NCBI GenBank assembly: GCA_020091685.1
Contig: CM034597.1
Location: 35,519,301 to 35,583,300 of the forward strand
DNA length: 64,000 nt
Source of the DNA: Lutjanus erythropterus
Taxonomy: Eukaryota > Chordata > Actinopteri > Lutjaniformes > Lutjanidae
Direction of reading: 5' to 3'
The translations under genes were made by a program, and so were the position numbers. The notes under the pieces are model-generated. The model had not been told where the DNA came from, did not search any database, and saw only the letters and a list, made by a program, of their open reading frames with translations. Below are positions 44,001 through 47,000 of this stretch, in pieces (position 1 is the first letter of the stretch; every line of letters begins with the position of its first letter).

Positions 44001-47000
44001 AAGAAACATGTGGACACATAATCATCTACATCCTCACAACCATTACAAGCTGCTGTATTGCATCAGGTGTTCGTTATTGTTTCCACACCCAGTATAGTGG
44101 CCTATGAGGGACAAAAAAACACTGCACAAACTTCCAGGTTCTTCCAAAACCTGTTTGCATTGTGAGTATAAAGTAGAGCCCACTGAATAATGGATCCTTG
44201 AGGGCAATACTGATATCAACATTTTGAGTGTTTGAACAATCCAAAATTCATTTTTTAACCTAAACATATATTTTTCATGAAAAAAAAAACTTTAAGTGTT
44301 TTCTAGTGGAGAAGTTCTCAGTTTTTTCTCTGCCAAGGACGCCTTCAGACAGAAAATATACCGAGGACCCCCTCATGTATCTCTCTTATAAACTTATATT
44401 TAGTTGTATGAAAGAACAACACTTGATCTTGATCTTAGAGGATACACACACAAAATTACCTACAATTCTGATTCAGATTCTGATTATTTTAAATAATATG
44501 CAGTAAAAATATAAAATATACAGTATATAAAACAGAAATAATAGAAAATATATATATAAAACAAAAACATAAAAAGAATAAGGCCAAGCCTGGGACTTGA
44601 AAATGATAATCTATAAAATTATTTGTGTAAAGGAAAAAGTTTAATGAAGTAGTGATTGCTGAAAGTGTCATTGTGAAACATATGTAATGAAGCCTTTTGT
44701 AATAAATAAATAAATAAATAAATAAACTTTTTGTGGATGCCCTGGCAGAGTGCCATGGACCCCTGGGTGTCTCTGACCCTTATTTGAGAACCAATCCTCT
44801 AGTGGACACAGTGTGTGATGAGAAAACTGTTTTTAAATTACCTTAAACATACTGCATCTTTTGCTTTTTTATACTATGAGCTGACATACTGTACATGCAG
44901 CGTTTCTGCAGGTTTCAAAAAGTTGAATTTAAGACTTTTTAAGACAATTATGAATACAATTTAAGACCAATTTCATGTCCATATTGCCAAAAATTATGTT
45001 AATTAATAATTAATCTCTTGATGAAATCATGCAAAGTAAGACTTCGTGTCCTTTCCACAGTCAAAGGTGGAGCATGACGCTGGGCGTGATCCAATAAATT
45101 CTTACCAGGCTGCAGAGGTTCCAAACTGGTTTCCTGTTTTTTAGTTTAGAGTGTGATCAAATGTGTGAGCAAATTTTTTCCCTAAAAGTCATTAGACCAA
45201 AAACACTAGACTGAAGTTAATGCAACTTTATAAAAGTAAAAAAAGTCATGTTAACTAATACAATTAATTTTTAAGACATGTCATAATCATATTTAAGACA
45301 TTTTAAGGGCTACAATTCAGATTACTGGATTTGTTAGGACCTGCAGAAACCCTGATATGCCAGAATTTTCTATCTGTCACAAACTGGCTGACAATATCAG
45401 CCATGCTTATATATTGATCATGTTCTTTCATAAAGACACATAAACCAGAACATGAAGTTTTCATTGATGACCAGGTGACAACCTACCATGTCCACCTCCA
45501 CCTCATAGATCGCCCCATCGTCTTCAAAGTCGATGAAAAACCAGTTATTCTGCTGTTGCTGCTGCTGCTGCTGGGGCTGCAGCAGAGCCATGGCCATCTC
45601 AAGCCTTTAACAGAGCTGCTGATCCACTACAGTCTAGTCCCGGTGTTGTACAAGCTCCCTCCTAAACTGTAATTCTCACACTGATCAGAAACCTTTAGAC
45701 CATTCAGTCCTAGTCAGATGTCGAGGGTCCGCAGATCCAGTCCAGCCTGAGGTGAAAAATCATTGAATCCAGAGGGCCCAGTAACCACCGACGTGAATAC
45801 TGGAGATGGCGGGAAGCTCTCACTGCCATAGATGTTACCACCAATGCCTTGTCTCAGCTAACTCACTCCTGTCCTGTTCTGGACTCACTTCCTATGTCAT
45901 CGACCGGTCTCAATCCTGCTGACAAGCTAATCCTGCTCGAGGTCGGACTGAAATTAGCTTATCTCTGCCTCAGATTAGCAGACACGGGTTTATTTAGCCT
46001 CTGAGGTTGGGCCAAGCAGTGAACCCAGGCAGCAAACGTCAGAGATTAGCCATTGACTGGAACTGGCTGTCTCTCTCTCATTGAGTTGCCACGATACCTG
46101 AATTTTTAAAAGGACAGTTCATCATAGAGTTTTGAGATACTGGCTGTAGAATATAATGGAACTAGATGGTCGTCTTGAATCCACTTGGGCATAACACAGA
46201 ATGTTAAATAGACCCAGGACCTTCGATAATAGAACAGAACAGACTGTACGCATGAAAAATGTGGATCCAAACCTGTATGGGTCCAGAGTCTGGTCTCTGG
46301 TGGACCAATGAAGACTCTACAGCTGATATCTCCAAAACTCTGATGACTCTGATTTTGGGGTGAACTGTGCCCTTAACTTTAATAGAATACTAGCGTTGCA
46401 GCAAAAACGAAAAAGAAGTCCAAGGCACATAAATCAGAGTAATTTTTTTCTCTTTTAGTTACCAGCCGGCCAACATTGCTGGTACAGAAAAAGTCCTGTA
46501 ACATTGCATAGTACTGCTACTATAAGCCAAATTTCAGGCAAATAAGACTGAACTGAACATTTAACATTTTAAACATCCAGCTGAAATTGAACATGAGATT
46601 GTTTCAGTTTTTCTCGATGAACCTGCTTTGAGCGTGAGCAAACAAACCAAGTGATGTGTTGCTTGTTTGAACGTTCCCCCCGGTCCTATTTTTCCAAAGT
46701 TTGCGCTCTTGCTTCACCTCCTATTTTCTTTGGTCAAAATCGACGCCAATGTCCTTAGGGTCTCTGTTTCTCCTCTAGTCAGCAGTCAACAGGGAGGATG
46801 AGAGACTTTTTAAGAGTTTGAGAAGCAGCACATCTTATATGATCCACAGCACCCTTTTTACAGGGATGTCCTAAAAACGACAAGGTTTGTCCTCAAAAAA
46901 AAACAAGGTTTTGAAGGAAAATGTGGGGGGCTGTTGGGGGTTATAAGTAAGTAAACAACCTGACTTAAGAAAATTTTATTTGGGAAACATTAATTAACAT

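Follow-up and report, generated by a model that had tools for sequence, protein, structure and literature searches.

A conserved exon within an intron of the fish slc25a24 gene that probably opens an EF-hand-less form of the mitochondrial carrier

In a study of human APC1 (SLC25A24), the linker's amphipathic helix is reported to act as the inhibitor, and the truncated form delta1-155, in which this helix is retained, is inactive (PMC5369052). The form delta1-171, which keeps the linker loop only, is described there as having the stability of the wild-type protein with calcium and as taking up ATP, at a level below that of the wild type and with almost no uptake in EGTA, for which the authors blame poor transport of free ATP; as read from the printed primer, its carrier part starts with GIDIGDS (PMC5369052). 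SLC25A41 is presented in another paper as a calcium-independent ATP-Mg/Pi carrier without the N-terminal calcium-sensing domain (PMC6283063), and several splicing variants of SCaMC genes are mentioned in two papers (PMC3391283; PMC6283063). One of these also reports that SCaMC-1L, a relative, when shorn of its N-terminal domain gave a larger share of cells with mitochondrial staining, with only partial co-localisation (PMC3391283). No published EF-hand-less, alternative-promoter or internal-promoter form of SLC25A24 came up among the titles and abstract openings of the open-licence literature, which leaves absence from print unproven. The family is known, and we regard a conserved EF-hand-less isoform of this known calcium-regulated carrier, as proposed here, as new.

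We analyzed a 64,000-nucleotide stretch of Lutjanus erythropterus DNA, the whole of which is called the window here. It carries slc25a24 on its minus strand, with coding exons running from 55538 to 38098, as located by tblastn with the fish orthologues P0014 and P0015. The features of the gene are as follows.

55359..55538, minus strand: exon 1, coding part, canonical form; EF-hand region, by tblastn.
52308..52434, minus strand: exon 2, canonical form; EF-hand region.
52075..52162, minus strand: exon 3, canonical form; EF-hand region, with its 3' end in phase 2.
48919..49030, minus strand: exon 4, canonical form; encodes the amphipathic helix as well as the fourth EF-hand, ending in YWKHST, phase 0.
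45607..45609, minus strand: TAA stop in the reading frame of the candidate exon, ahead of its start codon, from the sequence.
45487..45597, minus strand: candidate alternative start exon of 37 codons, from the sequence; its peptide is present in 62 database proteins.
45481..45486, minus strand: splice donor gtaggt, phase 0; V-G or V-S codons here in 60 of 60 unspliced frames.
42139..42297, minus strand: exon 5; encodes the linker loop and opens the carrier domain, beginning VLDIGDS and preceded by tgtgcag.
41271..41423, minus strand: exon 6, by tblastn and in silico splicing.
40883..40990, minus strand: exon 7, by tblastn and in silico splicing.
39737..39904, minus strand: exon 8, by tblastn and in silico splicing.
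39458..39608, minus strand: exon 9, by tblastn and in silico splicing.
38098..38279, minus strand: exon 10 with the stop codon, by tblastn and in silico splicing.

The EF-hands lie in exons 1-4, and exons 5-10 of the window align to P0014 and P0015. The candidate exon sits in intron 4, between exons 4 and 5, so placed that exons 5-10 are common to both forms. Some other genes were also seen in the window: pieces of L6 membrane (TM4SF-like) genes (PF05805; 3602-3814 on the minus strand, 24454-24708 and 28746-29000 on the plus strand), representing two or more genes that differ in strand; two exons of a gamma-glutamyltranspeptidase-family gene (PF01019; 16314-16646 and 20646-20867, both minus); and a single long open frame of 260 aa at 33454-34236 (plus) with DUF3429 (PF11911), the domain known from TMEM69-like proteins.

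A preliminary description of this DNA, made from the letters alone, had placed a 37-codon exon with an upstream in-frame stop, a good start context and a phase-0 donor on the minus strand of intron 4, and its coordinates and frame are borne out by the sequence. The frame, the donor and its phase are directly established, as is the stop ahead of the ATG, a TAA at 45609-45607; the codon that matches this TAA is Q in P0004, P0005, P0021 and P0028. The start codon context is GAGATGG, and the donor gtaggt, with assumed frequencies, scored 7.95 against 5.31-11.36 for the seven other scored donors of the gene. As had also been proposed, this donor fits exon 5 at 42297: when 45597-45487 was joined in silico to exons 5-10, the frame stayed open for 343 aa. 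Such an anatomy is at chance level by itself, and the structural argument alone is weak. Of ATG frames that span 30 codons or more and reach a phase-0 GTRNG donor, intron 4 holds three, two of them from the two ATGs of this exon; in 200 first-order Markov sequences derived from the intron the mean was 1.9, and 75% of these sequences had at least one. No second copy of 46050-45440 was found within the window, and the repeats detected in the intron leave the exon uncovered.

Conservation, which the preliminary description had named, for other fish, as a test of its proposal, was what set the exon apart from chance. A first search with residues 1-60 of the predicted product as protein query gave 18 matches at E <=10 from 28 candidates, and eight of the matched sequences were read. 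Five of the 18 (P0001-P0005) contained the exon, and the remaining 13 (P0006-P0018) matched exon 5 only. A second search, among shorter proteins, found the exon in all 13 of its matches, and a third, with a short-frame profile, found it in every one of 57 matches at E <=10 from 1578 candidates, these 57 including all 13 of the second search. In total, 62 database proteins contained the exon, which together with the window made 63 rows and 60 distinct exon peptides. The peptide consists of a glutamine run of variable length followed by a conserved core. The A of column 4, the L of column 6 and the E of column 36 were invariant in 63/63 rows and a W was kept in 62/63, and Met stood at alignment column 1 or 3 in all 63, a regularity to be read with the preference of gene callers for Met in mind. 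Differences in peptide length by whole codons are no evidence, since rows with open frames can display nothing else.

The donor is conserved together with the peptide. In the 60 unspliced rows (the window and 59 database frames), the two codons past the exon read V-G in 58 and V-S in two; V-G fits a donor because GTNGGN retains the G at +5, and V-S does likewise if the serine is AGY. Mean identity was 76% over the last 20 exon columns (1770 pairs) and 11% in the ten codons beyond V-G/V-S (903 pairs with long enough tails). The 35 one-step substitutions from the codons of the window had a mean BLOSUM62 score of 0.83, against -0.56 for all 116 possible ones, and none of 20000 random draws reached the observed mean, although rows recruited by protein similarity are biased toward intact frames and mild changes. 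This recruitment bias leaves the sharp drop of similarity at the donor unaccounted for. Conservation of the segment is directly established, and the pattern supports the view that it is a coding exon, under protein-coding constraint, whose donor and phase are conserved too.

With regard to the taxonomic spread, the named species with the exon are Caranx melampygus (P0001), Lates japonicus (P0002) and Takifugu flavidus (P0003), all of them spiny-rayed fish. Distant forms of the exon occurred in P0070, P0072 and P0073-P0075, for example MALLQNQERNWFSIDYEDDSGLREVEV-VG and MALLQQQPKGEWFFIDFEEDGAVYEVEVEV-VG, and these five proteins may come from non-fish vertebrates, implying a wider spread, or from a paralogue. 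The upstream frames of P0074 and P0075 are rich in glycine and arginine, as if GC-rich. Scans of viral contig and genome contig collections turned up no relative. The unnamed database frames have no connection of their own to exon 5. Among P0006-P0018, 12 of the 13 are spliced proteins and none comes from the source 'lgn', for which reason the lack of a spliced isoform from 'lgn' does not weigh against the isoform; in addition, the 90% clustering of the database may conceal isoforms.

The exon is not as hidden as the preliminary description had it, because three public gene models include it, and all three join its donor to exon 5. P0003 of Takifugu flavidus (338 aa) has the predicted EF-hand-less architecture, in which the exon peptide is followed by VLDIGESLAIPDEF and then by the carrier. 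Pfam found in it only Mito_carr, in three stretches, and no EF-hand family, and the canonical P0015 has EF-hands too. The Takifugu flavidus annotation merged homology, Augustus predictions and full-length PacBio transcripts of pooled tissues (PMC6841922), and P0003 may stem from any of these. P0002 of Lates japonicus has the exon after exon 3, replacing exon 4, and comes from an annotation made by BRAKER1 with RNA-Seq spliced alignments (PMC11346364). In P0001 of Caranx melampygus the exon is inserted after exon 4, with 20 extra residues ahead of it; an upstream extension of the Caranx type runs into stops in the window.

Taken together, we find it quite probable that fish slc25a24 has in this segment of intron 4 a conserved alternative first coding exon, giving a carrier without EF-hands and without gating. 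Transcripts would begin in the leader or upstream of it (45598-46000), translation would start at MAMALLQ, and splicing would join 45487 to exon 5 at 42297. The product of about 343 aa would retain the linker loop along with three mitochondrial-carrier repeats, but would have neither the four EF-hands nor the amphipathic helix, which locks the carrier at low calcium. Three carrier repeats are indeed present, as Mito_carr in P0003 and in the window as exons 5-10 aligning to the orthologues; EF-hands are missing from P0003 by Pfam and from the predicted 343-aa product; and the amphipathic locking-pin helix, which is encoded at the end of exon 4, is skipped by the alternative form. The joined isoform is supported by the annotated Takifugu protein. 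Its exchange of ATP-Mg for phosphate would be free of calcium gating, as we infer by analogy with SLC25A41 and human delta1-171, and any role of the acidic segment would be a putative one. Given the mitochondrial staining seen with truncated SCaMC-1L, import of the isoform need not suffer. Predicted structures were poor, both for the isoform (P0003 with alignment A3, mean pLDDT 42.1) and for the exon peptide (P0037 with alignment A4, mean pLDDT 56.1), and a suspected beta-hairpin gained neither support nor refutation. Spindlins were the subject of 17 weak matches of the 37 residues in solved structures, the best with an E-value of 0.039, and were taken as chance. The main idea of the preliminary description is thus well supported by evidence beyond its own: the conserved exon, donor and phase and the Takifugu protein speak for an EF-hand-less isoform, whereas the anatomy on which it had relied does not rise above chance.

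The DNA upstream of the exon bears on where transcripts would begin. Three features were located there.

45598..45946, minus strand: leader of conserved DNA, a possible 5' UTR or promoter, by tblastn with the upstream peptides of P0004, P0005 and P0021.
45991..45996, minus strand: TATA-like TAAATA, a possible core promoter, identified by pattern alone, as were two further TATA-like sites in 45598-46200.
45605..45606, minus strand: AG for a weak acceptor at 45604, which would link exon 3 (phase 2) in frame with GCTTGAGATG, the arrangement of the Lates japonicus model.

The leader has no open frame in the window, where the upstream peptides of P0004, P0005 and P0021 align with stops and gaps. 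GC content is 0.50 over 45598-46100 and 0.32-0.39 in four other stretches of the intron. An internal promoter of its own would likely drive the exon, although acceptor-like sites also occur in this DNA. A bacterial promoter scan was set aside as meaningless for a fish. The leader also contains an upstream ATG with a 39-codon frame (45829-45711, minus strand), whose opening codons resemble those in P0004, P0005 and P0021; it is possibly a conserved upstream ORF, or merely conserved DNA.

Against the start-exon reading stands the fact that both the Lates and the Caranx model have the exon at an internal position, preceded by EF-hand exons. If the segment were such an internal exon, the protein would retain most of its EF-hands, while the acidic segment would either take the place of the locking helix and the fourth EF-hand or come to lie between them and the carrier; a Lates-like product would also be without the locking helix. 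The RNA-Seq-aided Lates model joins exon 3 to RLEMAMALL, the Caranx model places the exon after exon 4, and several frames share the residues that precede the Met (QRLEM and similar). Exon 3 of the window has a phase-2 end, and its junction to 45604 is open into the exon frame. Two AG sites that open into the exon frame speak against the view that in this species the exon is usable solely as a protein start. However, these are only two of the 53 AG sites in 45597-46149, namely 45604 (for a phase-2 exon) and 45597 (for a phase-0 exon), and with assumed frequencies they scored 1.21 and -3.58, against 4.93-11.75 for seven real acceptors. A Lates-like form is possible but ill served in the window, because its in-frame acceptors score far below the real ones; moreover, the stretch used by Caranx has stops here and the Takifugu model is EF-hand-less. 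The start exon fits the splice signals of the window better than the Lates-like form, and we consider an internal exon rather unlikely.

A second alternative is a poison exon, in which an acceptor in the leader would add stops to the slc25a24 mRNA and reduce its level, with the open frame as a by-product. The best acceptor-like site, 45746, scored 7.9, within the range of real acceptors, and is followed by stops, and the leader is conserved. On the other hand, the AG of 45746 is absent in P0021, because the codon there reads L, a comparison that rests on P0021, with P0004 and P0005 aligning unclearly at this point; and the conservative, frame-specific change in the exon would be unneeded for a poison exon. 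This reading appears very improbable. The same site could possibly serve a noncoding exon upstream of the alternative exon. Least probable of all, with hardly any weight in our judgement, is conserved regulatory DNA, an enhancer or promoter in which the open frame arose by coincidence: chance-level exon anatomy and a conserved leader with no open frame in the window would suit it, but the conservative in-frame substitutions, the donor codons kept in 60/60 and the end of similarity at the donor (in protein-recruited rows) argue against it, as do three public models that treat the segment as coding and joined to exon 5.

If the alternative first exon is used and the isoform made, gated or ungated nucleotide loading could be selected by start exon, with no second gene like SLC25A41 required, and the exact junction, together with the likeness to a studied human truncation, makes this directly testable. 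A further-reaching claim, which we advance tentatively and hold to be doubtful, is that a start exon of great age, present in many fish and perhaps in other vertebrates, makes slc25a24 a two-mode gene with a calcium-gated and an ungated product, the latter having, in place of the locking pin, a conserved acidic segment with its own regulatory or targeting job.

Finally, the proposed form can be set beside the known systems. In alignment, the GIDIGDS of human delta1-171 falls on the opening codons of exon 5. Because exon 5 begins where delta1-171 begins, the alternative form would resemble a natural delta1-171 plus 37 residues: both start at the exon 5 equivalent and lack the EF-hands and the helix, whereas the human form is an artificial construct and the fish form carries 37 conserved residues in front. 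SLC25A41 (SCaMC-3L) likewise has an ATP-Mg/Pi-type carrier domain without EF-hands, but it is a separate gene, whereas the fish form would arise inside the EF-hand-bearing slc25a24, from intron 4. Like the splicing variants of SCaMC genes, it would be an alternative product of such a gene. To our knowledge, however, the known alternative first exons of SCaMC genes keep the EF-hands, whereas the fish exon would drop all of them and the helix as well.
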